This document shows positions 39,163 to 62,355 of a DNA stretch of 64,000 bases, one piece after another. The notes below the pieces were generated by a model. It searched no databases, was not told the origin of the DNA, and worked only from the letters and a program-made list of their open reading frames with translations. This DNA comes from Nocardioides marinus (GTDB taxonomy: Bacteria > Pseudomonadota > Alphaproteobacteria > Rhodobacterales > Rhodobacteraceae): NCBI GenBank assembly GCA_019801415.1, contig JAHVJD010000008.1, forward strand, positions 124,001-188,000, written 5' to 3'. The position numbers and the translations under genes were made by a program. Positions within the stretch are counted from its first letter, which is position 1. Every line of letters starts with the position of its first letter.

Positions 39163-39185
39163 TCCCCAAACACAGGAGACTAGCA

Positions 39186-40073: not shown

Positions 40074-40222
40074 TCGCGGGGCCGATGCGTAACCTCTGGG
40101 GGTATCCGCCTGAGCTGCTCGCGCTTCAACGGCAGCGTTGCTGAACGACACCGCGGAGGATGGGCTGCACCCCCCGCTCCGCCGAGCCCGGTATCGCCAC
40201 CCCGATCCGGGCCGAACCAGCC

Positions 40223-41419: not shown

Positions 41420-41543
41420 TCAACTGCTCGCCGGATCACTGCGGTTGTACCGGTGATACGGAATTCGGTCACAGCGGTCGAGAGGGTGTTGATATCGCGG
41501 CGCTATCCGTTCGGATATGGCGCAGTTCTGTTGCACCATTGCC

Positions 41544-41566
41544 CTGTCCCGGGGGGCGAGGGACAG
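41544..41566 (+). promoter_or_regulatory. Hairpin in the leader of the flippase operon
   Basis: CTGTCCC pairs with GGGACAG around a G-rich loop, 54 bp before the flippase ATG. It may be a leader attenuator or chance; no terminator T-run follows. Confidence 0.3.
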
Positions 41567-41619
41567 CCGGAGCGGACGTCGGTAACACTTGGTCCAACAG
41601 CCCCCATGGACAGGTCCCG

Positions 41620-45885: not shown

Positions 45886-46738
45886 CGGCTCTGCTGCACA
45901 AATCCCATGTGAGATTCAGCTCATGAATCCAGCGTGATAGCTGGGATGCATGAGCAGACCTCCCCCCTGACCTAAAGGACCAGAAAATGGTCGGCCTACA
46001 ATGAAGCGCTCAAGCGCCGCGGCTCGCTGACGATCTGGGTTGCCCCCAAGATGAGCTGGGTTGCCGCGCCGTCAGGCAACCATGGTCGCCAGAAGGCCCA
46101 GGCCATCAACATCCCCTACCGAGGCGCGAAGGGCCCGCTGCACCGGTTAATCGATAGCACCGGGATCAAGGTGGAGGGCGAAGGAGAGTGGCACACCCGC
46201 AAGCATGGTGGTTCCGAGCGGCGTCTCTGGCGCAAGATCCACTTGGGAATTGATGAGGAAACCATGGAGGTTCAGGCCGTAGAGATCACAGGGACCATAT
46301 CGGCGAAGCGCTGGTGTCAGCCGACCTGCCCAACCAGATTCTGGCGTACGAGCAGATCAGCAGCGTCACTGCCGACGGTGCCTACGTCACCTGAAATTGC
46401 CACGATGCAAACGCTGACCGCAGCGCCCACGCCGTTCGTCAGGGGAAGGCTCCCGCGGACCCTTTCCGGGCCTTCCTCACTCCTGCCGCGCAAGAACGCC
46501 AAACCTTGGAAGACCGTCATCGCCGGCGCGTCGCACGAAACGAAGATGCACTGTGTGAAACGGCTGGGGCAGCGCCTCATGGCACGGGGCTTCGACCGAC
46601 AGGTCGCCGAGCTTCCGGTCCATACCGCCGTTTTGATCGGCTACACCGCGCTCGGCATCCCTGTCACAGAGCCCGTAGGATGAGTCTGTCCAAGGCCAGG
46701 GGAAGCCCGGCCATTAGCCAATTTGTGCAACAGAGCCG
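45886..46738 (+). mobile_element. Decayed IS5-family insertion sequence
   Basis: The left end reads CGGCTCTGCTGCACAAAT (45886-45903). The right end, on the reverse strand from 46738, reads CGGCTCTGTTGCACAAAT, so the terminal inverted repeats differ at one base. Between them lies a broken transposase. At about 853 bp the element has lost internal sequence. It marks the downstream border of the polysaccharide cluster. Confidence 0.85.
45988..46683 (+). pseudogene. IS5-family transposase, internally deleted and frameshifted
   Basis: The recognisable order is WSAYNEALKRRGSLTIW, AINIPYRGAKGPLH, LIDSTGIKVEGEGEWHTRKHGG (split), WRKIHLGIDEET, RKNAKPWK, ETKMHCVKRLGQRLMARGFDRQVAEL and a normal C-terminus. 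Sequence expected between GRQ and AINIPY is missing. Around 46290-46400 the reading moves to another frame (DHIGEALVSADLPNQ), and another gap lies before ETKMHC. It cannot make active transposase. Confidence 0.88.
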
Positions 46739-47305: not shown

Positions 47306-48109
47306 TCAAGCCCAGTCCTGTTCCGGGTCCGGCAGGGGGATCGCGGACAGCAGCTCGCGGGTGTAGGCGGCCTGCGGGGCGGCAAACAGCGCGGCCGTCT
47401 CCGCGTTCTCCACGATTTCGCCGCGGTAGAGCACCAGGAGCCGGCTGCACAGCCGCCGGATTACCGAAAGGTCATGGCTGATGAAGGCCAGCGTCAGCCC
47501 GAGCTCGCGCACCAGCTCCTCCAGCAGGTTCAGCACCTGCGCCTGGCTCGACACGTCGAGGCCCGAGACGATCTCATCGGCGAGGATGAACTCCGGTCTG
47601 AGTGCGATGGCGCGGGCGATACCGACGCGCTGGCGCTGGCCGCCCGAAAGCTCATGCGGGTAGCGGCTGGCGAAGCTTTGCGGCAGGCCCACCATGTCCA
47701 GCGCCTCGCGCACCCGGGCTGGGATGTTGTCCCTACCCTGCACCCGCAAGGGCCCCGCGATGATACCGCCGACCTGCCGCCGCGGATTGAGCGAGGACAT
47801 CGGGTCCTGGAAGATCATCTGGAGCCTCGCGCGCAGCGGGCGCAGCGTGTCCTCGCTTGCGTGGGTGATGTCGCGGCCCTCAAAGGTGATGCCGCCGCTG
47901 TCGGGTTCGATCAGCCGCACCAGCGCACGGCCGAGTGTTGACTTGCCCGAGCCGGAGCCGCCGACGATGCCCAGCACCTCGCCCTTCGGGATCTGGAAGC
48001 TGAGGCCCTTCAGCACGTCCACCCGCGGCGCCGGGCCCAGTAAAGGCTTCTTCGACATGTCCGGGAAGCTCAGGCGCAGATCGCGCACATCGTAGATCAC
48101 CTCGCTCAT
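47306..48109 (-). CDS. Peptide/opine-type ABC transporter ATP-binding protein (DppF/OppF-like)
   Basis: 267 residues, second ATPase of the importer. Walker A GGSGSGKST, Q-loop IFQDPMSSLNPRRQVG, signature LSGGQRQRVGIARA, Walker B FILADEIVSGLD and switch ISHDLSV are intact. The usual oligopeptide C-terminal tail is short, ending LLSAIPLPDPEQDWA. It overlaps the DppD-like gene by 4 bp. Last gene of the leftward SBP-B-C-D-F operon. Confidence 0.93.
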   Translation of the reverse strand: MSEVIYDVRDLRLSFPDMSKKPLLGPAPRVDVLKGLSFQIPKGEVLGIVGGSGSGKSTLGRALVRLIEPDSGGITFEGRDITHASEDTLRPLRARLQMIFQDPMSSLNPRRQVGGIIAGPLRVQGRDNIPARVREALDMVGLPQSFASRYPHELSGGQRQRVGIARAIALRPEFILADEIVSGLDVSSQAQVLNLLEELVRELGLTLAFISHDLSVIRRLCSRLLVLYRGEIVENAETAALFAAPQAAYTRELLSAIPLPDPEQDWA

Positions 48110-48978
48110 TCCGCGGCCTCCCGCCTGCGGTCGCTGAGGGCGACCTCGGCCTCAACCGCGGCAATCACCCCGGGCGGCACCGGCGTCAGGCTGCCCTCCG
48201 GGTCGGTGTACTTCGGGGTCGCGGCCAGAAGCGCCGCGGAATAGGGATGGCCCGGCTGGCGGAAGAATTCGCGCACGCCGGTGTCCTCCACCATCTTGCC
48301 CGCGTAAAGCACGCTCATCGTCTGGCAGACCTTGGAGACCACGCCGAGGTCATGGGTCACGAACAGGAGCGCGGTGCCATGCCGCTCCTGCATCTGGCGG
48401 ATCAGCCGCAGGATCTGCTTCTGCACCGTCACGTCCAGCGCGGTGGTCGGCTCGTCGGCGATGATGAGCTTCGGCTCCGCGGCAAAGGCGGCGGCGATCA
48501 GGATGCGCTGGCGCATGCCGCCCGACAGCTCATGCGGATAGGCGCGCATCACCCGCGCGGGCTCGTGGATCTGCACCTCCTCCAGCAGCTCCAGCGCGCG
48601 GTCCGTGGCGGCCTTGCGGGACCAGCCGAGGAAATCGACCAGGCGGCTGGTGATCTGCGGGCCGATCCGGCGCGAGGGGTTAAGCGCGGTGAGCGGGTCC
48701 TGCGGGATCAGCGCCACCTTGGCGCCGATGCGCTGGCGCCTTGTGCGGGGCGGCAGCGCCTGCAGGTCCTCGCCGTCCACCACGATGCGCCCGCCCGTGA
48801 CCTGAAGCGCGCGCGGCAGGATGCCCAGCACCGACTTGCCGATCATCGACTTGCCCGCGCCGCTTTCCCCCACCAGCGCGCGGGATTCCCCCGCCGCCAC
48901 GTTCAGCGACACACCGCGCAGCACCGGCACGCCGGTGTGCAGCCGCACGTCGAGATTTTCAATGCTCAGGTAACTCAT
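48106..48978 (-). CDS. Peptide/opine-type ABC transporter ATP-binding protein (DppD/OppD-like)
   Basis: 290 residues. Walker A GESGAGKSM, Q-loop LIPQDPLTALNPSRRIG, signature LSGGMRQRILIAAA, Walker B LIIADEPTTALD and switch VTHDLGV, plus the HPYSAALLAATP oligopeptide tail. The Walker A ends in KSM rather than KST, a mild change. The ATG at 48976-48978 overlaps the permease stop (ATGA). An in-frame extension upstream to 49779 runs through the permease in another frame and is not real. Confidence 0.93.
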   Translation of the reverse strand: MSYLSIENLDVRLHTGVPVLRGVSLNVAAGESRALVGESGAGKSMIGKSVLGILPRALQVTGGRIVVDGEDLQALPPRTRRQRIGAKVALIPQDPLTALNPSRRIGPQITSRLVDFLGWSRKAATDRALELLEEVQIHEPARVMRAYPHELSGGMRQRILIAAAFAAEPKLIIADEPTTALDVTVQKQILRLIRQMQERHGTALLFVTHDLGVVSKVCQTMSVLYAGKMVEDTGVREFFRQPGHPYSAALLAATPKYTDPEGSLTPVPPGVIAAVEAEVALSDRRREAAE

Positions 48979-49826
48979 CGCAGCACCGGGTCGAAATGGT
49001 CCTTCAGCCCCTCGCCAAGCTGGGAGAAGCTGAGGACGGTGAGAAACAGGGCTGCCAGCGGGAACACCAGCACCCACCAGGCCTGATGCACCGAGGCGCG
49101 GCCCTCGGCGATCATCCCGCCCCAAGTCGGCGCGTCGGTGGAGACCGAGAGGTTCACGAAGCTCAGGATCGCCTCGACGATCACGGCGATGCCCATCTCC
49201 AGCGTCAGCAGGGCCACGATGGCGGGCAGCACGTTGGGCAGGATCTCGGCCAGTACCGTGCCGAAGCGGCTGCGGCCCGCTACTTGCGCAGAGGCGACAT
49301 AGTCCATCTGCGCCTGGCCCATCGCCTCGGCCCGAACCACGCGGGCAAAGCGGGTCCAGTCGATCACCACGATGGCGATGATGATGGAGGTTACGCCGGT
49401 GCCAAGCACAGCAATCAGCAGGATAGCAAACAGCACCGGCGGGAAGGCCATCCAGATATCGACCAGCCGCGAGACGGCAAGGTCCACCCAGCCGCCGTAG
49501 TAGCCCGCAATCAGCCCCAGCGTGGCGCCGATCAGGCAGGTGAGCGTGCCCGCGATGAGCGCGATGCTGAGTGCCAAGCGCGCGCCGTGCAGGATGCGGC
49601 TCAGCACATCGCGGCCGAGGCTGTCGGTGCCCAGCAGGTAGTTCGGATCGGCGCCCGCCTCCCAGACCGGCGGCAGGCGGCCCGCAAACAGGTCCTGTGC
49701 CAGCGGATCGTGCGGGCTGATCCAGGGCGCGAGCAGCGCCGCCAGCACCAGAATTGCCAGCCAGCCGCCCGCAAGCCACAGCCGCGGGCCCGGCAGGCGG
49801 CGGATCTCTCCCCTTGCGTCACGCAT
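48975..49826 (-). CDS. ABC transporter permease (DppC/OppC-like)
   Basis: 283 residues, about six membrane segments, first near 17-37 (WLAILVLAALLAPWI). DPLAQDLFAGRLPPVWEAG and LLGTDSLGRDVLSRILHGARLAL are the classic DppC N-terminal block; the EAA loop region is AMGQAQMDYVASAQVAG and ILPNVLPAIVALLTLEM. It overlaps both neighbours (8 bp with the DppB-like gene, 4 bp with the ATPase). Confidence 0.93.
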   Translation of the reverse strand: MRDARGEIRRLPGPRLWLAGGWLAILVLAALLAPWISPHDPLAQDLFAGRLPPVWEAGADPNYLLGTDSLGRDVLSRILHGARLALSIALIAGTLTCLIGATLGLIAGYYGGWVDLAVSRLVDIWMAFPPVLFAILLIAVLGTGVTSIIIAIVVIDWTRFARVVRAEAMGQAQMDYVASAQVAGRSRFGTVLAEILPNVLPAIVALLTLEMGIAVIVEAILSFVNLSVSTDAPTWGGMIAEGRASVHQAWWVLVFPLAALFLTVLSFSQLGEGLKDHFDPVLR

Positions 49827-50829
49827 GGCGCAGCCTCGGGTTCAGGGCGGCGTAGGTCATGTCGACCAGAAAGTTCACGACGGTGAACAGGAGCGCAAAC
49901 AGGATCACGATGCCCTGAATCAGCGGCAGGTCGCGGTTGATCACCGCGTCGATCGCCATGTTGCCGAGGCCCTCGTAAGAGAACAGCCGCTCGATGATGA
50001 CCGTGCCGCCGATCAGGAAGGTGAACTGCACCCCGATCAGCGTCAGCGTCGGCAGGATCGCATTGGGCAGCGCCTCGCGCAGGATGATGCTGGTCTCGGA
50101 ATAGCCCTTGGTGCGGGCAAGCGTCACGTAGTCGAGGTGCAAGGTTTCCTTCAGCGATTGTTTCAGAAGCTGGGAGATGATCGCCGCCAGCGGAATGGCC
50201 AGCGCCAGCGCGGGCATGAACATATGGGCGACGATGTCGGCCCAGACGTCGAAGCGCAGGCGCAGCAGGCTTTCCCAGAGGTAGAAATTGGTGTGGAACT
50301 CGAAGCCTTGCGCAGGCGAAATCCGGCCCGAGATGTGGAACAGCGGCCAGAGCACCCCGAACAGCAGGATCAGCACCAGCCCCCAAAGGAAATCCGGCAC
50401 CGACAGCGCCATGCCGCCCGCAACGTCGATGGCGCCCTCGGTCCTTGTGCCGCGCCACAACGTTGCGGTGAGCGCCATCGCGCCGCCCAAGCCTACCGCG
50501 ATCACCAGCGCCATCACCGACAGTTCCAGCGTGGCGGGCAGCCGCCCGAGCACCAGCTCCGCCACCGGCTGGCGCAGCGAGATCGAGGTGCCGAAATCGC
50601 CCTGCAGCACGCCGGTGAGCCAGATCAGGAACTGCTGGAAGATGGATTTGTCGAGCCCGTAGAGCTCTTGCAGCCGCTGGATGTCCTCGGCGGTGGCGCC
50701 GGGCGGCAGCATCATGGCAACCGGGTTGCCCGGCACCACGCGGATCACCACAAAGACGATCACGGCAGCGCCGGCCAGGGTCACCAGGGAGGCGGCCAGC
50801 CGGATGAGTATTCGGCGCAGGATCTGCAT
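49819..50829 (-). CDS. ABC transporter permease (DppB/OppB-like)
   Basis: 336 residues, about six membrane segments. It has the DppB N-terminus (RRILIRLAASLVTLAGAAVIVFVVIRVVPGNP), the LGLDKSI-like LYGLDKSIFQQF loop and the EAA region (DYVTLARTKGYSETSIILREALPNAILP). Pairs with the DppC-like protein. It lies 121 bp after the binding-protein gene, beyond an intrinsic terminator. Confidence 0.93.
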   Translation of the reverse strand: MQILRRILIRLAASLVTLAGAAVIVFVVIRVVPGNPVAMMLPPGATAEDIQRLQELYGLDKSIFQQFLIWLTGVLQGDFGTSISLRQPVAELVLGRLPATLELSVMALVIAVGLGGAMALTATLWRGTRTEGAIDVAGGMALSVPDFLWGLVLILLFGVLWPLFHISGRISPAQGFEFHTNFYLWESLLRLRFDVWADIVAHMFMPALALAIPLAAIISQLLKQSLKETLHLDYVTLARTKGYSETSIILREALPNAILPTLTLIGVQFTFLIGGTVIIERLFSYEGLGNMAIDAVINRDLPLIQGIVILFALLFTVVNFLVDMTYAALNPRLRHA

Positions 50830-50864
50830 TTCCGTGCCCTTGATAGTGTTGGTTCTTGAAAAAG

Positions 50865-50904
50865 GGCCGCGGGGGCTGGCATCGCTGCCGCGGCCCCCGC
50901 GGCC
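50865..50904 (-). terminator. Intrinsic terminator between the binding-protein gene and the permease genes
   Basis: Perfect 12-bp arms GGCCGCGGGGGC and GCCCCCGCGGCC. On the minus strand the stem is followed by CTTTTTC. It would stop most transcripts after the solute-binding protein gene and let a fraction read into the permease and ATPase genes, the usual way to make more binding protein than transporter. Confidence 0.8.
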
Positions 50905-50950
50905 AGGACAGGCCAGGGGTCCGGCCCTATCCCGGTGCGCGCGCCCCGCG

Positions 50951-52477
50951 TCAGGCCCGCGTCATCAGATGCGGCAGCAGCGCGCCGGAGGCATGCGGCG
51001 TCACCTTCACCGCATCGCTGTGCAGGATCGGCTGGACGTATTGCAGCAGCGGGATCACCAGCGCGTTTTCGGCGATGTGGCGGTCGACGTCCTTCCAGCC
51101 CGCGATGCGCTTCTCCTCGTCCGGCTCGCCCCAGAGCGGGATGATCTTCTGCACCAGCTCCTCCCCGTCCCAGACCGCATGCGGCGAGGGGCCGAACATG
51201 GCAAAGCCGGTTGAGGTCGCCGGATCGCCGATGGCGTTGCCCCAGTTGTAGAAGGCCGCCGGCGCCAGCGTGTCGGCGGCGCGCAGCTCGTAGTGCTTGG
51301 CGATCTCGTAGACCTCGATCTCCGCCTCGATCCCGACCTTGCGCCAGAGGCCGACGATGGCCTGGATGATCTCGTAATCCTTGGGCTTGAAGCCGCGGGT
51401 GGTCTGGATGGTGAACTTGACCGGGTTGTCCGGCCCGTAGCCCGAGTCGGCGAGCAGCTCCTTGGCCTTCTCCGGGTCGTAGGCCACCTTGATCGAGCCG
51501 TCGAAGGCCGAGTAATCCGGCGTCTGCAGCGTGTCGATGGCCACGCCATAGCCCGACAGGAGCCGGTCGATGATGAGCTGCTTGTCGATCGCATGGGCCA
51601 TCGCCTTGCGTACGTTGGGATCGGTCATCGCCTCGACATCGTTGATGAAGATCATGCCGATGTCCGACACAGGCGCGGCGGTGCCCTCGATGCCTGCCTT
51701 GCCCTTCAGGCGGTCAAACTCCTCGTAGGGCATTTCCAGCGTCACATGGGCGTTGCCGGATTCCACCTCGGCGACACGGCTGGCGGCGTCGGTAACGAAC
51801 TTGATGGTCACCGATTTGAACTCCGGCGCGCCGCCCCAGTAATTGTCATTCGCCTTCAGCCGCACAAAGGCGTTGCGCTCGAACTTCTCCACCATGTAGG
51901 GGCCGGTGCCGACCGGATTGGCCTCGAAGCCCGCGGCGCCCACCTCCTCGTAGTAGTTCTTCGGCAGCACATAGCCGGTGAGGAAGCTCATCCACTTGAA
52001 GATCGTGGGCTCGTATTCATTCACATCCGCCGTCACCCGGTTGCCGTCGATGGCGTAGTTGCCGACCTTGCCCCAGATGAACTGGATCGGGTTGCCGGTC
52101 TCGGGCGCGCCTGCGCGTTCTAGCGACCAGACCACATCCTCGGGCGTGAGCGGATCGCCGTTGTGCCAGGTGACGCCCTCGCGCACCTCCATCCAGATCT
52201 GCGACTTGTCCTCGTTCCAGCCGTAATCCGTGATGATGCCCTTATCGAAGGACAGGTCCGGGTTCTGGTGGATGAACATGTCGAAGACCGACTGGTAGAG
52301 GCCCTGGATGGTCGGGTTCACCGCCGAGGGGCCCACCGTGGGGTCCCAGCTCGGCAGGTTGACGTTGTAGGCAATCACCAGCTCCTCGATCCCGTTGGCG
52401 AGCGCGGGCAATCCGCTGGCCGCGAGGGCGGCGCCGGCGGCGGTGGACTGCAATACCATGCGTCTTGTCAGTTTCAT
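50951..52477 (-). CDS. ABC transporter substrate-binding protein (family 5)
   Basis: Periplasmic binding protein, 508 residues. A Tat-like signal peptide (MKLTRRMVLQSTAAGAALAASGLPALA) is likely. SBP_bac_5 features include LPSWDPTVGPSAVNPTIQGLYQ, REGVTWHNGDPLTPEDVVWSLER, NPVGTGPYMVEKFERNAF and NDNYWGG. Family members bind peptides, nickel, opines, glycosides or other small organic molecules, so the cargo is open. The adjacent flavoprotein and aromatic oxidoreductase genes hint at a non-peptide ligand. AGGGAAAG precedes the ATG. Confidence 0.93.
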   Translation of the reverse strand: MKLTRRMVLQSTAAGAALAASGLPALANGIEELVIAYNVNLPSWDPTVGPSAVNPTIQGLYQSVFDMFIHQNPDLSFDKGIITDYGWNEDKSQIWMEVREGVTWHNGDPLTPEDVVWSLERAGAPETGNPIQFIWGKVGNYAIDGNRVTADVNEYEPTIFKWMSFLTGYVLPKNYYEEVGAAGFEANPVGTGPYMVEKFERNAFVRLKANDNYWGGAPEFKSVTIKFVTDAASRVAEVESGNAHVTLEMPYEEFDRLKGKAGIEGTAAPVSDIGMIFINDVEAMTDPNVRKAMAHAIDKQLIIDRLLSGYGVAIDTLQTPDYSAFDGSIKVAYDPEKAKELLADSGYGPDNPVKFTIQTTRGFKPKDYEIIQAIVGLWRKVGIEAEIEVYEIAKHYELRAADTLAPAAFYNWGNAIGDPATSTGFAMFGPSPHAVWDGEELVQKIIPLWGEPDEEKRIAGWKDVDRHIAENALVIPLLQYVQPILHSDAVKVTPHASGALLPHLMTRA

Positions 52478-52533
52478 CTTGCTTTCCCTGTTGTTGGCGG
52501 CCGGCGCTTGTTGTTTAGCGAGGTCTTTTGCCC

Positions 52534-54105
52534 CTATGCGCCGGCCAGTTTCTGCCCGAGCAGGTATCCCGCCCCGGCTCCGGTTCCTGCCCCCGGCCAG
52601 ACCGCGGCCCCGGTGTGGTAGAGATCACGCACCGGGGTGGTGCCATCGGCAAACCCGCGCAGGGGCCGGAACATGAAGTGCTGCGAGAGGTGGTGGCTGC
52701 CGCAGACCTGGTCGCCGCCGACGAGGTTGGGGTTGTCGGCCTCCAGCATCGCGGGGCTCACCACGTGGCGGCCGAGGATCTTCGCCCGCACTCCCGGCGC
52801 GTAGCGGTCGAGGATATCCAGCGCGCGCTCGGCCATTGGCTCCGCCGCGTCCTCCCAGTCCTTCGCGGTGATCTGCCCGGCCGCGTCGCCCGTGATCTCT
52901 CCCGGCACCATGCGAACCTGGAGCCACAGCACATGCTTGCCCGCCGGCGCGCGGGAGGGGTCGACGGCGGTGGGCTGACCGCAGACGATCACCGGCTCGC
53001 TTGGCAGCAGGCCCGCCTTGGCCTGAGCATAGGTCGCGGCCATCTGGTCGAGGCTTGGGGCCATGTGGACATAGGCGAAGCGCTTGAGATCCTCTCCAGT
53101 GGCCCAGTCCGGCAGGCTGTCCATCGCCAGGTGGATCATCATGGTGCCCGGGGCGTGGGCAAAGCGGGCGAGCCCCTTGTCATAGCGCGCATCGGGCGTG
53201 CCGCCGGTCAGCCGCAGCAGCGCCGCGGGCGCGACATTAGCGATCACCGCCCTGTTCGCGCGCACTACCTCGCCGCCGACAAGCTCGATACCGGTGGCAC
53301 GGCCGCCCTCATGCAGGATGCGGGCTACTTCGGCGTTGCAGGTAACCGAGCCGCCACGCGCCTCGATCATCGCCACCATGGCGCGGATCATGCCATCGGC
53401 CCCGCCCTGCCCCAACACCATGCCGAAAGCCTGGTTCACCTGGCCTTCGAGGTAGGGAAACAGCGCGCCGCCCGCGACATCGGGGGCAAAGTCCAGGTGC
53501 ATCCCCCAAGCCGCCAGGAGCGCCCGCACCTTGGGCGCGCGGAAGGTCTCCTCCAGCCAGCCGCGCGGCGAGGCGGCGAGGAAGCGGCCGAGGTCGAGCA
53601 TCCCCGCCCCGCCCATGCGGCGGAAGGATTTCCAGCACAAGGATGCAAATGCACGTTTGCTGATGGCGGAGCCGAGCAGGCCAAAGAGCGTCTCCGCCTG
53701 TTTCGGGAACGCCTCGGTCAGCTCCGCCCAGGCGGCGCCGTCGGCGGCATCCTCGGCCGCGATGCGTTGGGTGGTGACGGCGGCGTCATTGCTCACCCCC
53801 AGCCAGCTGCCATCGGGAAAGACCGAGGCGAAACAGTCGGACGCGGGGGCAAAGGACAGGCCGTGGCGGGCCAGCTCCTCGCCATAGACTTTGTTAAAAG
53901 CAGAGCCCGCAAAGAGCGACAGGTTCATCGCGCCCCAATCGTGGCGGAAGCCAGGCAAGGTGTACTCCCCCGTTTTCACCGCCCCGCCGGGCTGCCCCGC
54001 GCGTTCGTAAACGGCAACGCTCCAGCCCTTGGCGGCCAGATGCGCCGCGCAGGCCAGGGAGTTGTGGCCGCTGCCGATAATCACTGCGTCCGCGCTTGCG
54101 GGCAT
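52534..54105 (-). CDS. FAD-dependent oxidoreductase, phytoene-dehydrogenase-like
   Basis: 523 residues. The N-terminus has the GxGxxG dinucleotide fold DAVIIGSGHNSLACAAHLAAKGWSVAVYER followed by AGQPGGAVKTGEYTLPGFRHDWGAM; late blocks GQGGADGMIRAMVAMIEARGG and YHTGAAVWPGAGTGAGAGYLLGQKLAGA are the FAD-binding ends. Related to the second flavoprotein at 55023, but leftward with the importer. It would desaturate or oxidise an imported organic compound. It ends 57 bp before the binding-protein gene. The substrate is unknown. Confidence 0.9.
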   Translation of the reverse strand: MPASADAVIIGSGHNSLACAAHLAAKGWSVAVYERAGQPGGAVKTGEYTLPGFRHDWGAMNLSLFAGSAFNKVYGEELARHGLSFAPASDCFASVFPDGSWLGVSNDAAVTTQRIAAEDAADGAAWAELTEAFPKQAETLFGLLGSAISKRAFASLCWKSFRRMGGAGMLDLGRFLAASPRGWLEETFRAPKVRALLAAWGMHLDFAPDVAGGALFPYLEGQVNQAFGMVLGQGGADGMIRAMVAMIEARGGSVTCNAEVARILHEGGRATGIELVGGEVVRANRAVIANVAPAALLRLTGGTPDARYDKGLARFAHAPGTMMIHLAMDSLPDWATGEDLKRFAYVHMAPSLDQMAATYAQAKAGLLPSEPVIVCGQPTAVDPSRAPAGKHVLWLQVRMVPGEITGDAAGQITAKDWEDAAEPMAERALDILDRYAPGVRAKILGRHVVSPAMLEADNPNLVGGDQVCGSHHLSQHFMFRPLRGFADGTTPVRDLYHTGAAVWPGAGTGAGAGYLLGQKLAGA

Positions 54106-54137
54106 CGCTTACATCCTTCAACTCAATAAGGATTGAT

Positions 54138-54147
54138 ATTTGCAAAT
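54138..54147. promoter_or_regulatory. AT-rich divergent promoter region with a palindrome
   Basis: The 119-bp spacer between the two operons (54106-54224) is much AT-richer than its surroundings. It holds a perfect ATTTGCAAAT palindrome and TATAAAT-like boxes. It is a candidate operator for the MarR protein encoded at 56579 and would let one site control both directions. Confidence 0.55.
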
Positions 54148-54224
54148 GCATATAAATCTGTCTAGTGTTTCTTTATTGCGATGCAAAAAAGCGGCGCCAG
54201 ACCGCGGGCAACAGGAGAGATAAA

Positions 54225-55016
54225 ATGACTTCAAACAACGCGTTGGCGGAATTTGGCGCCAAGATTCTTTCGGGTGAAATCGAAGTGGTGGACTGCTCCG
54301 GCACCTTGGGGCCGGACACACCGATCCTGCAGCTGCCGGAGGATTTCGCCAGGAACACCCCCAAGGTCGAGATCCACAAGATCAGCGAATACGATGCAGA
54401 CGGCCCGTTCTTCGCCTGGAACTGGCTGAAGCTGGGCGAGCACTCGGGCACGCATTTCGACGCGCCGCACCATTGGATCACCGGCAAGGACTATGCCGAC
54501 GGCTACACCGACACGCTGGACGTGCAGCGGCTGGTGGCGCCGGTGAACGTGATCGACTGTTCGACGGAAAGCGCGGAGAACGCGGATTTCCTGCTCACCG
54601 CCGATCTCATCAAGGCCTGGGAAGCCGAGCACGGGGAGATCGGCAAAGGCGAATGGGTGGTGATGCGCACCGACTGGGACAAGCGCGCGGACGACGAGGC
54701 GCTGTTCCTCAACGCCGATGTCGAAGGGCCGCACAGCCCCGGGCCGACGCCGGACGCGGTGGAGTACATGCTGTCCAGGGGCATCGTCGGCTGGGGCAGC
54801 CAGTGCATCGGCACTGATGCGGGCCAGGCCGGGCTGATGGATCCGCCCTACCCGGCGCACAACCTCTTGCACCGCGACAACTGCTTCGGGCTCGCCTCGC
54901 TTGCCAATCTCGACAAGCTGCCCGCCAAGGGCGCGATCCTGATTGCCGCGCCCCTGAAGATCGCCCGCGGCACCGGAAGCCCGATCCGCGCGCTGGCGCT
55001 GGTGCCCAAGGGCTGA
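54225..55016 (+). CDS. Cyclase-family metal hydrolase, similar to isatin hydrolase/kynurenine formamidase
   Basis: 263 residues. The metal-binding motif HSGTHFDAPHHW (H73, H77, D79, H83) is the cyclase-family signature. VEGPHSPGPTPDAVEYM, GTDAGQAGLMDPPYPAHNLLH and GLASLANLDKLP continue like isatin hydrolases as I remember them. These enzymes open cyclic amides such as isatin, or hydrolyse N-formylkynurenine. The start is ATG at 54225 after AGGAGAG; an in-frame ATG at 54165 is poorer. It heads the rightward operon and lies 6 bp before the flavoprotein gene. The substrate is inferred only. Confidence 0.87.
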   Translation: MTSNNALAEFGAKILSGEIEVVDCSGTLGPDTPILQLPEDFARNTPKVEIHKISEYDADGPFFAWNWLKLGEHSGTHFDAPHHWITGKDYADGYTDTLDVQRLVAPVNVIDCSTESAENADFLLTADLIKAWEAEHGEIGKGEWVVMRTDWDKRADDEALFLNADVEGPHSPGPTPDAVEYMLSRGIVGWGSQCIGTDAGQAGLMDPPYPAHNLLHRDNCFGLASLANLDKLPAKGAILIAAPLKIARGTGSPIRALALVPKG

Positions 55017-55022
55017 CGCCGG

Positions 55023-56582
55023 ATGGCCGCCGCCCCGCATATCATCATCGGCTCCGGCATCAATGCGCTGGTGGCCGCGGCACTGCTGTCCCGCAAGGGG
55101 CAGCGGGTGCTGATGCTGGAACGCTCGGACCGGATCGGCGGCTGCATGCGCACCGATGAGATCACGGTGCCGGGCTTCCACCATGACGTGATGGCGGCAA
55201 CCTTCGTGCTGTTCCTCACCTCGCCTGCCTATGCCGAGCTGGCAGAGGATCTGGGCAAGCACGGGCTGGAGTTCTGCCATACCTCCCGCCCCACCGCGGT
55301 GCTGCGCCCGGACGGGCGGGCAACAGTGCTGACGACGGACCGCGCCGCCAATGTCGCGGGCTTCGACGCGCTCGCCCCCGGCGATGGCGATGCCCACGCC
55401 CGCGACGTGGGCGGGATCGAGGCGGATGCGGAGTTCCTCTTCGGCCTCCTCGGCGGGCCGCTGTGGTCGCGGCAGACCGCAAAACTGCTGGCGAAACAGG
55501 CGTGGAAACGGGGTCTCACCGGGCTGAAGGCCTGGGGCGGCGCGGCGCTGCAGCCCGCGCGCGGCTGGCTGGAGGCCTCCTACAGCAGCGCCGATGTCCA
55601 GGCGCTCTGGGCGCCTTGGGTGCTGCATTGCGGGCTGACGCCGGAAAACACCTATTCCGGCCAGATGGGCCGGGTCATCGCCTTTGCCCTGGAAGCGGCT
55701 GGCGCGCCGGTGGTGAAGGGCGGCGCGGGCGCCGCGGCGGCGGCGTTCCAGCGGCTGATCGAGGCCAACGGCGGCGAGATCCGCACCGGCACCGATGTCA
55801 CCCGCATCCTCACCGAACGCGGCCGCGCCTGCGGGGTGGAGACCGCGGAAGGCGGGACGATCCGCGGCGCCTCGGTCATCGCCTCGGTCACGCCGGGGCA
55901 GCTTTATGGCCGCCTGCTGCCCGACGAAATGGCCCCGGAACCGCTGCGCAGCTTCCGCCACGGGCGCGGCAACTTCCAGCTCCACTACGCGCTCGACGCG
56001 GAGCCTGAGTGGCGCGCCGAGGGGCTGGAGGACGTCGCGCTCATTCACCTCGCCGATGGGATCGACAGCGTGTCGAAATCCGCAAACGAGGCCGAGCGCG
56101 GCATGCTGCCGGAAACCCCGACCATCTGCGTGGGACAGCCGCACAGGCTCGACCCCTCCCGCTGCCCGGAGGGCAAGGCCATCCTCTGGCTGCAGATCCC
56201 GGATGCGCCGCGCGTGATCAAGGGCGATGCGGCCGGCGAAATCGCCACAAGCCCCGAGTGGACCGAGCCCACCCGCGAAGCCTTTGCCGACCGCATCGAG
56301 GCGATCCTCGCCCGCCACATCGCCAATTTCGACCAAATCAAGCTGGCCCGGCGCGCCTATTCGCCCGCTGACCTGCAATCGCTCAACATGAACCTCGCAG
56401 GCGGCGACCCCTATGGCGGTGCCTGCACGCTCGACCAGTTCTTTGTCTGGCGCCCCTTCCCGCAATCGGTCAATAACGCCACGGGTGTGAAGGGCCTTTC
56501 GCTGATCGGGGCCTCGACCCACCCGGGGCCCGGCCTTGGCGGCGGGTCCGGGTACAACCTGGCAAAGAGGATGGGCGCATGA
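55023..56582 (+). CDS. FAD-dependent oxidoreductase, phytoene-dehydrogenase-like (second paralogue)
   Basis: 519 residues. HIIIGSGINALVAAALLSRKGQRVLMLERSDRIGG gives the FAD fold; the C-terminal GASTHPGPGLGGGSGYNLAKRMGA is the second FAD-contacting block. It has the same architecture as the gene at 52534, so the locus holds two related flavoproteins, one per operon. It begins 6 bp after the cyclase gene and overlaps marR by 4 bp (ATGA). Confidence 0.9.
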   Translation: MAAAPHIIIGSGINALVAAALLSRKGQRVLMLERSDRIGGCMRTDEITVPGFHHDVMAATFVLFLTSPAYAELAEDLGKHGLEFCHTSRPTAVLRPDGRATVLTTDRAANVAGFDALAPGDGDAHARDVGGIEADAEFLFGLLGGPLWSRQTAKLLAKQAWKRGLTGLKAWGGAALQPARGWLEASYSSADVQALWAPWVLHCGLTPENTYSGQMGRVIAFALEAAGAPVVKGGAGAAAAAFQRLIEANGGEIRTGTDVTRILTERGRACGVETAEGGTIRGASVIASVTPGQLYGRLLPDEMAPEPLRSFRHGRGNFQLHYALDAEPEWRAEGLEDVALIHLADGIDSVSKSANEAERGMLPETPTICVGQPHRLDPSRCPEGKAILWLQIPDAPRVIKGDAAGEIATSPEWTEPTREAFADRIEAILARHIANFDQIKLARRAYSPADLQSLNMNLAGGDPYGGACTLDQFFVWRPFPQSVNNATGVKGLSLIGASTHPGPGLGGGSGYNLAKRMGA

Positions 56583-57088
56583 ACGAGAACACCAAGGGCA
56601 AACCGTCGGACCAGCCAGAGGCGCTGCAGCAGGAGCCGCTGCCGCGGCTGGGCGAAATCGGGCTGGAGAACTTCCCACCCTACCTGATGAACCGCATCAT
56701 GGGGCGCTACAACGCCAGCTTGCGCACCGAAATGGCAGCGCTGGGGCTGACCACCGCGCAGATGCGGACGCTGGCGGTGCTGTCGGTGCTGGACGGGCTG
56801 TTGATCCGCGAACTGGCAGTCTATGCGGTGGTGGAGCAATCGACGCTCAGCCGCTCGCTCGACCAGCTGGCACGCGACGGGCTGATCGAACGCCGCCCGG
56901 ACCCGGACGACAGCCGCGCCACCCGCGTCTTCCTCACCGCTGACGGCCGCGCCACCCATGACAAGCTGTGGCCGCATGTCGCCGCTGCCTACCAGCAGAT
57001 GTTCGAAGGCATCGGGCTGGAGGAACGGCGCCAGTTCACCGCCACGCTGCAAACCATCCTGCGCAACGTGCGGGTGCACCAGATTTAA
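56579..57088 (+). CDS. MarR-family transcriptional regulator
   Basis: 169 residues. A winged HTH (TTAQMRTLAVLSVLDGLLIRELAVYAVVEQSTLSRSLDQLARDGLIERRPDPDDSRATRVFLT) is MarR-type, with the D(D/E)xR wing present as DPDDSRA. An N-terminal 35-residue charged extension precedes it. It lies in the operon it probably controls, together with the divergent flavoprotein-importer genes, through the palindrome at 54138. The ligand is likely the pathway substrate. Confidence 0.92.
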   Translation: MNENTKGKPSDQPEALQQEPLPRLGEIGLENFPPYLMNRIMGRYNASLRTEMAALGLTTAQMRTLAVLSVLDGLLIRELAVYAVVEQSTLSRSLDQLARDGLIERRPDPDDSRATRVFLTADGRATHDKLWPHVAAAYQQMFEGIGLEERRQFTATLQTILRNVRVHQI

Positions 57089-57118
57089 GAGAACACCAAA
57101 CTACCCAGGGAGGAGCCG

Positions 57119-59281
57119 ATGGCCGAAAGGTCGTTCAAGGCAGAGGTCGAACATCTGCGCAAGGGTGAGGGGCATACCTTCACCGGTGAGGGCATCCTGG
57201 CTATCACCAAGGCTCTTCTGGAGAATGGCGTGGGCTATGTCGGCGGCTACCAGGGTGCGCCGATCTCGCATCTGATGGATGTGCTGGCCGATGCCGAGGA
57301 GCTGCTGGGCGAGCTGGGCGTGCGTTACGAGGCCAATGCCTCCGAGGCCGCCGCCGCGGCGATGCTTGCAGCTTCGGTGCATTACCCGATCCGCGGCGCG
57401 GTGACCTTCAAGGGCTCGGTCGGCGTCAACGTGGCGTCCGACGCGCTGGCAAACCTCGCCTCCTCCGGCGTGACCGGCGGCGCACTGGTGATCGTAGGGG
57501 AGGATTACGGCGAAGGCTCCTCGATCATGCAGGAGCGGTCTTATGCCTTTGCGATGAAGTCGCAGTTCTGGCTGCTGGACCCGCGCCCCAACCTGCCCTC
57601 CATCGTGAAGTCGGTTGGCGACGGCTTTGCCCTGTCGGAGGCGTCCAACACGCCGGTGATGCTGATGGTGCGGATCCGCTCCTGCCACGTGACCGGCAGT
57701 TTCGAGTGCCGCGACAACCTGCGCCCGCCACTCACCGTGCGCGACGCCCTGGCCAATCCGCAGCGCGACTTCGCCCGCGTGGTGCTGCCGCCGATGTCCT
57801 ACCAGCACGAGCACGACAAGATCGAAAACCGCTGGCCCGCGGCGGAGAAACACATCCTCGATCACGGGCTGAACGAGCGTTTCGGGCCGAAGGAGGGCAA
57901 GGTCGGGCTGATCTGCCTTGGCGGCATGTACAACAGCGTGATCCGCGCGCTGCAGCGGCTGGGGCTTGCCGATCTCAGCGGCAATACCGAGGTGCCGCTT
58001 TACGTGATGAACGTGGCCTACCCGCTGGTGCACAGCGACCTGCTGGACTTCTGCGAAGGCAAGGACGCAGTCCTTATGATTGAGGAAGGCCAGCCGGAGT
58101 TCATCGAGCAGCAGCTTGGCGCGATGCTCTACAAAGAGGGCAGCTCCACCAAGCTCGAAGGCAAGGGCATCTTCCCCAAGGCGGGCGAATACACCGGCCA
58201 GGTGATGATGGACGGGCTGGATGATTTCTTCCGCAAATACGCCGCCCACCTCTTGCCCGGCCAGGTGCGCGCGCCCAATGCGCCCGCGCCCGAGATCCCG
58301 GACCTGAGCCAGACCGTGCCGATCCGCCCGCCGGGGTTCTGCACCGGGTGTCCGGAGCGGCCGATCTTTGCCTCGATGAAGCTGGTCGAACAGGAACTGG
58401 GCAAGCACCAGATCTCGGCCGATATCGGCTGCCACCTGTTTGCCGCGCTGCCGCCGTTTGAAATCGGCGGGCAGACCATGGGTTACGGGCTGGGGCCTGC
58501 CTCCAACGCCGCATTCGACGGCGGCGGAGAAAAGCGCGCGATCTCTATCCTCGGCGACGGCGGCTTCTGGCACAATGGCTTGAGCAGCTCGATCGGCAAC
58601 ATGGTGTTCAACAAGTCGGACAGCGTGGCGATCATCGTCGACAACTACTATTCCGCCGCGACCGGCGGGCAGGATATCCCGTCAAGCCGCGCGAAAAACG
58701 CCAGCAAGTCCACCAACAACCCGATCACCAAGGCGCTTGAGGGTGCGGGCGTCAAATGGATCCGGCAGATCGACCGGACCTATGATGTCACCAAGATGCG
58801 CGCCACCATCCGCGAGGCACTGACCACCGATTACGACGGGCCCAAGGTGATCGTCGCCTCCTCGGAATGCATGCTGAACCGGCAGCGCCGCGAGAAGCCC
58901 CAGCGCAACAAGGCGATCAAGGACGGCGCGCGGGTGGAGATCCCCCGCTTCGGCGTCGATGAGGACGTCTGCACCGGCGATCACGCCTGCATCCGGCTTT
59001 CGGGCTGCCCGTCGCTGTCGCTGAAGAAGCTGGACGACCCGCTGCGCGACGACCCGGTGGCGCATATCGACCAAACCTGTGTCGGCTGCGGCAACTGCGG
59101 CGAGGTGGCCGATGCGGCGATCCTCTGCCCGTCGTTCTACGAGGCGCGGGTGGTGCATAACCCCACCGAGCGGGAGCGCCGCCGGGCGGGCCTGCGCAGC
59201 CGGGTGATCGCCTGGCTGCAGGCGCGCCGCAGCGCGCGGCAGCTCACCTTCGTCGGCAATGACGCGGGGGAGGCCGCCTGA
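57119..59281 (+). CDS. Indolepyruvate:ferredoxin oxidoreductase-like large (alpha) subunit
   Basis: 720 residues. Thiamine-diphosphate enzyme that oxidatively decarboxylates an aryl-pyruvate to the acyl-CoA. N-terminal PFOR-type domain I (ITKALLENGVGYVGGYQGAPISHLMDVL). The TPP-binding motif is GDGGFWHNGLSSSIGNMVFN. A C-terminal ferredoxin-like domain has CTGDHACIRLSGCP and CVGCGNCGEVADAAILCP, giving two [4Fe-4S] clusters. GGGAGGAG precedes the ATG. It pairs with the next gene by a 1-bp overlap. The substrate, indolepyruvate or another 2-oxo acid, is open. Confidence 0.9.
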   Translation: MAERSFKAEVEHLRKGEGHTFTGEGILAITKALLENGVGYVGGYQGAPISHLMDVLADAEELLGELGVRYEANASEAAAAAMLAASVHYPIRGAVTFKGSVGVNVASDALANLASSGVTGGALVIVGEDYGEGSSIMQERSYAFAMKSQFWLLDPRPNLPSIVKSVGDGFALSEASNTPVMLMVRIRSCHVTGSFECRDNLRPPLTVRDALANPQRDFARVVLPPMSYQHEHDKIENRWPAAEKHILDHGLNERFGPKEGKVGLICLGGMYNSVIRALQRLGLADLSGNTEVPLYVMNVAYPLVHSDLLDFCEGKDAVLMIEEGQPEFIEQQLGAMLYKEGSSTKLEGKGIFPKAGEYTGQVMMDGLDDFFRKYAAHLLPGQVRAPNAPAPEIPDLSQTVPIRPPGFCTGCPERPIFASMKLVEQELGKHQISADIGCHLFAALPPFEIGGQTMGYGLGPASNAAFDGGGEKRAISILGDGGFWHNGLSSSIGNMVFNKSDSVAIIVDNYYSAATGGQDIPSSRAKNASKSTNNPITKALEGAGVKWIRQIDRTYDVTKMRATIREALTTDYDGPKVIVASSECMLNRQRREKPQRNKAIKDGARVEIPRFGVDEDVCTGDHACIRLSGCPSLSLKKLDDPLRDDPVAHIDQTCVGCGNCGEVADAAILCPSFYEARVVHNPTERERRRAGLRSRVIAWLQARRSARQLTFVGNDAGEAA

Positions 59282-60822
59282 TGACTTTGGAACTGCCCAT
59301 CAACCCGCAAGGCAGTCGGCCCGCGGCCGCCGAGGTGATCAAGCTCGCCATCCTTGCCGTTGGCGGCCAGGGCGGCGGGGTGCTGACAAGCTGGATCGAA
59401 GCACTCGCCCGCGCCCAAGGCTACAGCGCACAGGCGACCAGCGTCGCGGGCGTTGCCCAGCGAACCGGGGCCACGATCTACTACATCGAGATGGCGCCGG
59501 GCACGGTCGAAAACCCGGTGTTCTCCCTCGCGCCTGCGCCCGGCGACGTCGACATCATGATCGCGGCGGAGATGATGGAGGCCGGCCGCTCGATCCTGCG
59601 CGGCTTCGTTACGCCCGACCGCACCACGCTGATCGCCTCCACCCACCGCGCGCTGGCTGTGTCGGAGAAGATGGTGCCGGGCGACGGTATGGCCGATGCC
59701 TCGGAAGTGCGCGCGGCGGCGGAGACCGCGGCGCGCAAGCTGGTGATGGCCGACATGGAACGTGCCGCTACGGAAGCGGGCTCGGTGATTTCCGCCTCGC
59801 TCTTCGGCGCGCTTGCAGGCTCCGGCGCCCTGCCCTTCCCGCGATCGGCCTTCGAGGATGCGATCCGCGCTGCGGGCAAGGGCGTGGAACCCAGCCTGCG
59901 CGCCTTTGCCGCCGGGTTCGACCTGGCGCAGCAGGGCGAGCCGCGGCCCGCGGAAACCCCCGCACCCGCCTCCCTCGCGCAGCCGCAAGGCCCCGAGGGC
60001 AAGCTGCGCAAATGGCAGAAGCTTGCCGCGCGCGTGGCGGAGATGCCGGAGGCGGTGCAGGAGATGGCCCTGCCCGGCCTGCAGAAGGTGGTGGAGTTCC
60101 AGGACCTGGCTTATGGCCGCGAATACCTCTCCCGCCTTGATCAGGTGATGGCGCTGGACAGCGCGAACCATGGATATGAGCTGAGCCGCGAGGCTGCGAA
60201 GTACATCGCCAATGCCATGGCTTATGATGACGTGATCCGGGTTGCCGACCTCAAGACCCGGTCCAGCCGCTTCGGCCGGATCGAGGAGGAGATGAAGGCG
60301 GACGGCAAGCTTATGACGCTTACCGACTACCTGCATCCGCGGGCCGAGGAGATCGCAAGCCTGCTGCCCGCCGGGCTGGGCGCCAGAGTGGAGGCCAGTC
60401 CGCGGCACATGGCGCGGCTGGAGAAACTCTTCAGCAAGGGCCGCCGCATCCGCACCGACAGCCTGCGCGGCTTCCTGATGCTCTACATGCTGGGCGGGCT
60501 CAAGTTCTGGCGCCGCGGCACCCGCCGCCACGCGGTGGAGCAGGCGCATCTGGAGGAATGGCTCGCGATGGCGATGGGCTACCTGCCAGACCGCTACGGC
60601 ATGGCGGTGGAGGTGATCCGCTGCCGCCGCCTGATCAAGGGCTACTCCGACACTCACGCCCGGGGCCTGAGCAAGTTTGCCCGCGTGCTGGAGGGCGCCC
60701 GCATGGTGGAGGCGCGCGAGGACGGCCCCGAATGGATCGCCCGGCTGCGCGAAGCCGCCTTGCAGGACGAAAAGGGAGAGGCGCTGGACGGCGCGCTGAA
60801 AACCATCGCCAGCTTCACCTGA
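59281..60822 (+). CDS. Indolepyruvate oxidoreductase beta-like subunit with an extra C-terminal domain
   Basis: 513 residues, much longer than archaeal IorB (about 200). Residues about 18-200 are the PFOR gamma-type domain (LAILAVGGQGGGVLTSWIEALARAQGYSAQATSVAGVAQRTGATIYYIEM). The rest is a roughly 300-residue helical domain of the DUF6537 type (HPRAEEIASLLPAGLG, LMLYMLGGLKFWRRGTRRH) whose role is not established. ATG overlaps the alpha gene stop by 1 bp (TGATG). It is the end of the operon. Confidence 0.9.
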   Translation: MTLELPINPQGSRPAAAEVIKLAILAVGGQGGGVLTSWIEALARAQGYSAQATSVAGVAQRTGATIYYIEMAPGTVENPVFSLAPAPGDVDIMIAAEMMEAGRSILRGFVTPDRTTLIASTHRALAVSEKMVPGDGMADASEVRAAAETAARKLVMADMERAATEAGSVISASLFGALAGSGALPFPRSAFEDAIRAAGKGVEPSLRAFAAGFDLAQQGEPRPAETPAPASLAQPQGPEGKLRKWQKLAARVAEMPEAVQEMALPGLQKVVEFQDLAYGREYLSRLDQVMALDSANHGYELSREAAKYIANAMAYDDVIRVADLKTRSSRFGRIEEEMKADGKLMTLTDYLHPRAEEIASLLPAGLGARVEASPRHMARLEKLFSKGRRIRTDSLRGFLMLYMLGGLKFWRRGTRRHAVEQAHLEEWLAMAMGYLPDRYGMAVEVIRCRRLIKGYSDTHARGLSKFARVLEGARMVEAREDGPEWIARLREAALQDEKGEALDGALKTIASFT

Positions 60823-61959: not shown

Positions 61960-62355
61960 TCAGGCCGCTGCTGTCGCTTCGATCTCGAAGAGCAGTCCAG
62001 GAATGGCAAGGCGTGTCACGCCCAACAGTGTCATGGGCGGGGCAACCTGATGGGGTCCGAACCGCATGCCCATCAGGTCGAAGTTCTTAAGGGCCTCGTC
62101 GACGTCTGTTGCGTAAACCCCGAGCTTGATCACATTGCTCAGGTCCATCCCTGCGCGCTCCAGAACCGCTTCGAGGTTGTCGAGCGCAAGGGTGATCTGC
62201 GCACGCATGTCGCCGGGATGTTGCGGGTTGCCTTCGCCATCCACGGCGGTCTGGCCCGCGCAGATCACTTGCCGCGTTGCGCCGTCGATCACTTCGGCCT
62301 GATTGTAGCCCAGCTTGATCGACCAGTCCCATGGGTTCACCGCAGTCCGTTCCAT
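61960..62355 (-). CDS. RidA/YjgF-family protein
   Basis: 131 residues. Family marks: VICAGQTAVDGEGNPQHPGDMRAQITLALDNLEAVLERAGMDLSNVIKLGVYATDVDEALKNFD and a late GVTRLAIPGLLFEIEATA, with the conserved RLAxPxLLxEIE arginine context for the deaminase site. RidA enzymes deaminate reactive enamines/imines; many homologues have other or unknown roles. AAGGAG precedes the ATG. Divergent from a WYL regulator gene that probably controls it. Confidence 0.9.
   Translation of the reverse strand: MERTAVNPWDWSIKLGYNQAEVIDGATRQVICAGQTAVDGEGNPQHPGDMRAQITLALDNLEAVLERAGMDLSNVIKLGVYATDVDEALKNFDLMGMRFGPHQVAPPMTLLGVTRLAIPGLLFEIEATAAA

Follow-up and report, generated by a model that had tools for sequence, protein, structure and literature searches.

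A conserved two-module gene cluster around a known isatin hydrolase, with a candidate route through isatin for the degradation of an indolic compound

Layout of the cluster

A stretch of 64,000 nucleotides from Nocardioides marinus (Rhodobacteraceae in the GTDB lineage; assembly GCA_019801415.1, contig JAHVJD010000008.1, positions 124,001 to 188,000 of the forward strand) was analyzed and is referred to here as the window. Eleven genes at 47306-60822 of the window form two divergent operons that leave a single AT-rich gap. One operon encodes a flavoprotein (FAD1) and a Dpp-type ABC importer with its binding protein; the other encodes an isatin hydrolase (the cyclase), a second flavoprotein (FAD2), a MarR-family regulator and two proteins resembling IorA and IorB (Table 1). 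The whole is a genuine catabolic cluster, widely conserved and built around a known isatin hydrolase. The divergent eleven-gene arrangement had been proposed in a sequence-only reading of the window and was borne out, in that the ends of the open reading frames match and the family searches agree. Ten of the eleven frames were used as listed, with their ends; DppD is taken from an inner in-frame ATG of a longer listed frame. The gap (54106-54224) is 119 bases long and has 41% G+C, compared with 63-72% in the surrounding region. No description of this cluster was found in the open-licence literature that was searched, a body of text that does not include the 2014 isatin hydrolase structure paper.

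Table 1. Genes and putative regulatory element of the cluster (window coordinates)
Feature	Position	Strand	Family matches and remarks
DppF/OppF-like ABC importer ATPase	47306-48109	minus	PF00005; under cut-offs among the 25 NCBIfam matches listed
DppD-like ABC importer ATPase	48106-48975	minus	PF00005
DppC-like ABC importer permease	48975-49826	minus	PF00528, PF12911
DppB-like ABC importer permease	49819-50829	minus	PF00528, PF19300
Family 5 periplasmic binding protein	50951-52477	minus	PF00496; twin-arginine-like signal by eye
FAD1, CrtI/CrtO-like flavoprotein	52534-54105	minus	PF01593, PF13450
Operator-like element, putative MarR site	54135-54170	plus	core TTTGCAAATGCAT at 54139-54151
Isatin hydrolase (cyclase)	54225-55016	plus	225/262 residues identical to 4j0n
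FAD2, CrtI/CrtO-like flavoprotein	55023-56582	plus	PF01593
MarR-family regulator	56579-57088	plus	PF12802/PF01047
IorA-like TPP subunit	57119-59281	plus	PF02775; ferredoxin-type cysteines near C-terminus by eye
IorB-like subunit with DUF6537	59281-60822	plus	PF01558, PF20169

The isatin hydrolase

The best solved relative of the window cyclase is isatin hydrolase B of Labrenzia (Roseibium) aggregata (4j0n, E 5.6e-160), of which it is the orthologue. The metal motif of isatin hydrolases, HxG[T/A]HxDxPxH (PMC6117287; here and below, papers are cited by PMC number from excerpts of their text), occurs in the window cyclase as HSGTHFDAPHH. Four residues line the pocket described for isatin hydrolase B, namely Phe63, Trp65, Trp84 and Phe209, and kinetic values with isatin are given for that enzyme (PMC6117287); in the alignment to 4j0n, three of the four (Phe63, Trp65 and Trp84) are kept in the window cyclase and Phe209 is replaced by Tyr. 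From the close match to this enzyme, hydrolysis of isatin to isatinate by the window enzyme is predicted with near certainty. The opening of a cyclic amide that had been claimed for this gene is probably the opening of one of the indole type, since the cyclase is close to a characterized isatin hydrolase.

The source gene of the crystallized enzyme lies in the same type of cluster. At the locus of Roseibium aggregatum IAM 12614 (L118 in our numbering of loci) the gene translation is identical to the printed 4j0n chain at 262 of 262 residues, and this locus has all eleven genes; thus the crystallized isatin hydrolase belongs to this same cluster. Neither "operon" nor "gene cluster" occurs in the excerpted text of a paper on this enzyme (PMC6117287).

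Conservation and gene arrangements

A search of genome contigs with the cyclase gave 366 relatives, the best 80 of which are the named loci. All eleven genes are found together in 42 of these 80. The sequence-only reading had treated the two operons as one system that should recur elsewhere, and they do so as a single conserved system, both being held by the 42 loci; this recurrence of the eleven genes rules out a chance neighbourhood. In another 21 loci the order is cyclase-MarR-IorA(-IorB), and neither flavoproteins nor a binding protein are present in the fetched stretch, to which the search of each genome was confined; in four of the 21 the sequence upstream of the cyclase is shorter than 3 kb, so that FAD1 could be cut off. 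The other 17 loci have a different arrangement or are cut by contig ends. The eleven genes recur also in Rhodobacterales genomes beyond the named loci. In a phylum-wide search with IorB (398 genomes, 29 over the cut-off; 33 places, of which 31 were fetched, the window's own and that of genome G002 being left out), nine loci with the same gene order were found (L080-L086, L092 and L093), all from one other family, which we guess to be that of Bradyrhizobium; by the choice of stretch, the importer of these nine loci was visible only to DppB or the binding protein.

Among the 292 genomes of the order to which the window's genome belongs, 24 have FAD1 and FAD2 side by side, and these are called cluster genomes below. 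They include G105, where FAD1 extends past the end of the contig, and G139, where the FAD1 frame has one stop. Three genomes were counted as without the cluster: G108 (intact lone FAD1), G253 (split FAD1) and G170 (broken FAD1, intact isatin half). The last two hold what appear to be decaying copies, with a broken FAD1 and importer fragments beside the isatin half in G170 (L059, 8656-10900) and FAD1 alone, in two pieces, in G253 (L058, 9171-10700).

The genes are also found in other configurations. A single run cyclase-FAD2-MarR-IorAB-FAD1-importer is present in three genomes (L054, L055 and L057). In G165 and G105 the flavoprotein half lies apart, with the cyclase and IorB elsewhere on the same contig; in G139 it is IorB that lies on a different contig, the cyclase being with the flavoproteins. 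Plasmids of Mesorhizobium and Neorhizobium carry FAD1 and the importer, the other genes being absent from the stretch read. The cluster is thus made up of two modules, half A with the importer and flavoproteins and half B with the isatin genes, which are joined, split or, locally, alone.

The operator-like element and the MarR regulator

The 119-base gap holds one element, GATATTTGCAAATGCATATAAATCTGTCTAGTGTTT, which is probably the operator of the MarR-family regulator. Its pattern was drawn by eye from 26 sequences, those of the window and of 25 loci, all of which contain the element (26/26); the matrix was built from them and then tried on the 55 remaining named loci. Of these 55, 47 have MarR, and in 45 of the 47 the sequence upstream of the cyclase scored above 10 bits: in all 26 where a flavoprotein gene is present as well, and in 19 of the 21 where it is not. 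For the eight loci without a detected MarR, two scores exceeded 10 bits, two were 3.5 and 4.7, and four (L179, L184, L188 and L189) were below -20. Four of the nine Bradyrhizobium-like clusters were scanned, and there the element scores 31-44 bits. An exact search with the core found two sites in the window's genome, one being the cluster gap; the other (contig C2 of G000, 105877-105889; L193) lies, by eye, near an MBL-fold-like frame and is probably a chance match.

The two scanned loci with split-off flavoproteins, L034 and L075 of Sulfitobacter indolifex, have the element between FAD1 and FAD2 (57.6 bits each), with no cyclase or MarR nearby. Because the element also precedes the flavoproteins where they are split from the cyclase, one regulator, responding to one inducer, probably controls both halves. 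The solved chains nearest to the regulator are 3cjn, which we take to be from Ruegeria pomeroyi, and then 7kym, 7kua, 3e6m and 3cdh; 7kym and 7kua come from the auxin-locus study.

Two variants of the isatin half were seen. In Leisingera loci (L119 and L127, also L117 and L125) TRAP transporter genes follow isatin hydrolase-MarR-IorAB, as judged by score for L119 and by similarity for the others. An operator-like site stands before a TRAP-type gene at L127:15325 (20.8 bits) and, weakly, at L119:15233 (4.4 bits); perhaps these genes are a second importer of the same regulon. L184 and L189 have isatin hydrolase-IorA-IorB runs in which MarR was not detected and the operator-like element was not seen, so the enzyme set exists under other control as well.

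The IorAB-like oxidoreductase

IorB matches NF006179 with 682 bits (cut-off 348) and is thus over the cut-off for the beta subunit of indolepyruvate oxidoreductase, PRK08312, and IorA has the TPP domain; in these features the pair is like the indolepyruvate ferredoxin oxidoreductase of the PRK08312 type. It differs in that IorA, with 271 bits against TIGR03336, is far under the IOR_alpha equivalog cut-off for the alpha subunit (651), and in its genomic tie to isatin hydrolase, which points to isatinate as the substrate. The extra helical domain that the sequence-only reading had noted in IorB is present and corresponds to DUF6537. It is common to known single-chain enzymes and is not a new domain, since the single-chain oxidoreductase model NF009589 spans it; residues 11-468 of IorB align to positions 720-1148 of that model.

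As an aromatic 2-oxo acid, isatinate fits an IorAB-type decarboxylation to an acyl-CoA (coenzyme A thioester). The proposal that a 2-oxo acid is finally oxidized to an acyl-CoA agrees with this and can be made more precise: the IorAB-like enzyme likely converts isatinate to 2-aminobenzoyl-CoA. Within the fetched stretches, a relative of isatin hydrolase (47-71% identity) was found in 15 of the 23 IorB loci with IorA at 60% or above and in none of the eight with IorA at 50-52% (Fisher p 0.002, for loci that are not independent).

The step after isatinate

We take the family NF006101 to cover 2-aminobenzoyl-CoA monooxygenase/reductase among its members. NCBI names it bifunctional salicylyl-CoA 5-hydroxylase/oxidoreductase. 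The window's genome encodes, on another contig, a two-domain protein of this family (1302.6 bits, cut-off 1078), and SDR, enoyl-CoA hydratase, acyl-CoA dehydrogenase and benzoate-CoA-ligase-like genes are its neighbours. Matches over the cut-off occur in 23 of the 24 cluster genomes and in 93 of the 268 others (nominal p 2e-9), or in 23 of 25 when G108, with its lone FAD1, is counted as a cluster genome. In G002, the one cluster genome of the 24 that is missing from this count, a match over the full length falls slightly short of the cut-off (1013 versus 1078 bits). Within genera the figures are 14 of 15 cluster genomes and 13 of 35 others (nominal p 0.0015). Protocatechuate dioxygenase, used as a control, is present in 16 of 24 cluster genomes and 160 of 268 others (p 0.66); the genus strata and the 16 control genomes are hand counts.

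In six of the 24 cluster genomes the NF006101 gene is 10-18 kb from FAD1, and the chance of six of 24 falling within 20 kb by random placement is 2e-7 to 6e-6; in G139 it is 3.2 kb from IorB. Genes of the same sequence cluster adjoin IorAB in L079, L089, L090, L092, L093 and L098 (L090 and L092 scored) and isatin genes in L121, L148 and L191 (L121 scored). The NF006101-type gene of L121 is found with genes for an SDR, an NF006107 enoyl-CoA hydratase and an acyl-CoA dehydrogenase.

The 2-aminobenzoyl-CoA (anthranilate) pathway likewise has an NF006101 enzyme and beta-oxidation-type genes, as the window's genome does. The difference would be in the origin of the thioester, which would be formed here by oxidative decarboxylation of isatinate, without ATP-driven ligation. 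The iaa pathway of Aromatoleum is anaerobic and has other genes. It too ends in 2-aminobenzoyl-CoA (PMC9613470).

Relation to the iad auxin loci

Like the window cluster, the iad loci of Variovorax, Bradyrhizobium and Achromobacter have iorAB, regulators of the MarR type and a hydrolase, annotated there as kynurenine formamidase; isatin and isatinic acid are reported as intermediates of the iad route (PMC9613470, PMC12633357). In a survey of auxin degraders iorAB (iadA/iadB) serve as markers exclusive to iad-like operons, and the compounds detected on indole-3-acetic acid (IAA) include isatin, isatinic acid and anthranilate (PMC9613470). The earlier statement that no known pathway combines the genes of the window cluster therefore holds only in part: iorAB, MarR and the hydrolase already occur together in iad loci, whereas iad-type L078, L096 and L097 gave no flavoprotein or importer match. 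The window cluster is without the Rieske oxygenase IadCDE, the CoA ligase IadF and the thiolase IadG, and has instead two CrtO-like flavoproteins, a Dpp-type importer and another operator-like element.

The solved chains nearest to the L096 oxygenase are 9o71 and 7yls (E about 1e-188), which we take to be IadD, and L077, L078 and L097 carry the same oxygenase gene family. In the window's genome the best match to an IadD-type oxygenase is 28% over about half of the query, and none lies in the cluster. An iad auxin locus is thus ruled out as far as tested, the iac genes not having been searched. No operator-like element was found in iad-type L096 and L097 (best scores -5.3 and -4.1).

A compound of formula C8H7NO3, that of isatinic acid, builds up strongly only in Variovorax strains overexpressing the segment iadC-K2 (PMC12633357). 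This could reflect the loss of an isatinate-consuming IorAB; overexpression alone also explains it.

Flavoproteins, importer and associated PLP proteins

FAD1 and FAD2 are paralogues with 37% identity. CrtO is the best NCBIfam match of FAD1 (185 bits, cut-off 1000; crtI_fam 122, cut-off 238), and FAD2 scores 160 and 90 bits against the same two models. A carotenoid gene pair is ruled out, since both proteins miss the curated CrtI/CrtO cut-offs. Because their best curated relative is a ketolase (CrtO), one might speculate that the flavoproteins set the C2 and C3 carbonyls of isatin. FAD1 homologues of 42-49% were also seen in L069-L072 (Agrobacterium, Cedecea and haloarchaeal plasmids), where the rest of the cluster is not in the stretch shown; both haloarchaea have a VOC-family gene close upstream.

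The three importer subunits that were scanned are under their equivalog cut-offs (DppF 222 bits, cut-off 660; DppB 213, cut-off 590; DppA 90, cut-off 1005), which rules out a true dipeptide importer DppABCDF. The solved chains nearest to the binding protein include peptide, opine and nickel binders. A term search of a paper on transporters of R. pomeroyi (PMC10130141) gave no hits.

A protein family with kynureninase-like PLP proteins among its members is represented in 23 of 128 clustered loci (four members checked by profile). The nearest solved protein is kynureninase 1qz9 (E 1e-14), and the family is far under the kynureninase cut-off. The members (L162:2040-3158, L038:17022-18140, L118:16942-18108 and those of 20 more loci) lie near the importer or isatin hydrolase, in some loci together with an aminotransferase. 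The PLP protein is present at 53% identity or more in 17 of the 24 cluster genomes. The best match in the window's genome is 28%, which rules it out as part of the window's pathway. In those relatives, the presence of the family near the cluster hints at an amino-acid-like precursor, for example oxidized tryptophan.

Proposed pathway and alternatives

We assign a probability of roughly 0.6 to the reading that the cluster is a MarR-controlled import-and-degrade system running through isatin, in which IorAB makes 2-aminobenzoyl-CoA. The Dpp-type ABC importer would take up an indolic compound, and the two CrtO-like flavoproteins would oxidize it to isatin. Isatin hydrolase would open isatin to isatinate (2-aminophenylglyoxylate), a step for which kinetics have been published with an 86%-identical enzyme. 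The IorAB-like enzyme would then carry out an oxidative decarboxylation of isatinate with CoA, yielding 2-aminobenzoyl-CoA and reduced ferredoxin, and the monooxygenase/reductase operon on the other contig would de-aromatize this thioester and lead it into a beta-oxidation-like route. MarR would bind the element at 54135-54170 and be released by a pathway compound.

Several observations weigh against this scheme. In the pocket of the window cyclase, Tyr takes the place of Phe209 of the model enzyme. Of the 23 IorAB loci considered above, eight have no isatin hydrolase in the fetched stretch, and L078, L096 and L097 among these eight carry an IadD-type oxygenase gene. NF006101 does not distinguish 2-aminobenzoyl-CoA from salicylyl-CoA enzymes, 93 genomes hold it without the cluster, and the p-values given for its association are too small, because related genomes are not independent. 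In the window's genome no operator was found at the NF006101 operon (best score -9.0), so that its control by the same operator is ruled out there. Finally, in Variovorax the segment iadC-K2, which is without iadA and iadB, fully restores anthranilate formation (PMC12633357), and IorAB is therefore not needed for anthranilate in that organism.

The last point, along with the naming of the IorAB families for indolepyruvate, would suit a scheme that keeps the proposed formation and opening of isatin but makes IorAB a side enzyme for an aryl-pyruvate released from the imported compound, with isatinate reaching free anthranilate by other means; the benzoate-CoA-ligase-like gene beside the NF006101 gene could then activate the anthranilate. 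We consider this unlikely. In 21 of the 80 named loci isatin hydrolase and IorAB are joined, and the stretch searched holds neither flavoproteins nor a binding protein next to them, which ties the IorAB substrate to isatin and not to the imported compound, and the window's genome encodes two further POR-domain proteins (frames of 1156 and 1148 amino acids) that could serve aryl-pyruvates. It appears very unlikely that the cluster is an auxin degradation locus, as a lineage variant of iad, even though the two share iorAB, a MarR related to those of the auxin-locus study, a hydrolase of the kynurenine-formamidase fold and the reported intermediates isatin and isatinic acid (PMC9613470, PMC12633357). 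There is no Rieske oxygenase in the cluster, the best IadD-type match in the genome is the partial one noted above, and the iad-type loci L096 and L097 are without the operator. In addition, the MarR is closest to 3cjn and, of the five solved chains, weakest to 3cdh, the strongest IAA binder in the excerpted report.

We give equally little credence to a natural substrate that is not an indole, in which case the hydrolase would open some other cyclic amide or diketone and isatin would be a lucky assay substrate. The fold is reportedly also that of the cyclohydrolase of phloroglucinol breakdown, and FAD1 homologues do occur without isatin genes in the stretches shown. Kynurenine formamidase likewise has the isatin hydrolase fold (PMC6117287). 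However, the hydrolase module adjoins an aminobenzoyl/salicylyl-CoA monooxygenase gene in several loci, and in L077 a hydrolase relative at 47% is about 5 kb from a Rieske oxygenase gene.

The preferred reading, a system that imports and degrades through isatin, can be extended to a broader one that we offer tentatively and regard, taken jointly, as doubtful. The IorAB subfamily would be an isatinate:ferredoxin oxidoreductase, the missing enzyme after isatin hydrolase, common to the window cluster and the iad loci. The importer and flavoproteins would provide an entry to isatin that is free of a Rieske oxygenase, with ketolase-type chemistry setting the two carbonyls of an imported conjugate of oxidized tryptophan or indole. 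The PLP protein would be a helper in many of the relatives, releasing isatin and alanine from a dioxindolyl-alanine by side-chain cleavage.

Published work places isatin and isatinic acid between auxin or indole and anthranilate (PMC9613470, PMC6221969), and the review among these sources calls the functional identification of the isatin hydrolase gene worth investigation. With this cluster, the crystallized hydrolase gains a candidate pathway, a predicted partner enzyme and a putative regulator. Should isatinate prove to be an IorAB substrate, the step following the hydrolase would have a name in marine roseobacters, in Bradyrhizobium-like bacteria and perhaps in auxin degraders, and the ring would enter a CoA pathway without ATP cost. 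Caution is advisable in using iorAB as an exclusive iad marker, as in the excerpted survey (PMC9613470), since many non-iad loci carry iorAB.

Neighbouring genes

A transposase (DDE) fragment at 46051-46683 of the window is close to the importer end of the cluster, and this border may therefore be rearranged. Just past the other end are two divergent genes, for a RidA-type protein (61960-62355) and a WYL-domain regulator (62443-63168); a RidA-type gene is also found near IorA in L096. To the left of the cluster lie sugar transferase and polysaccharide-synthesis genes (37771-42855) and, farther left, genes for a BCCT transporter and an alanine symporter.

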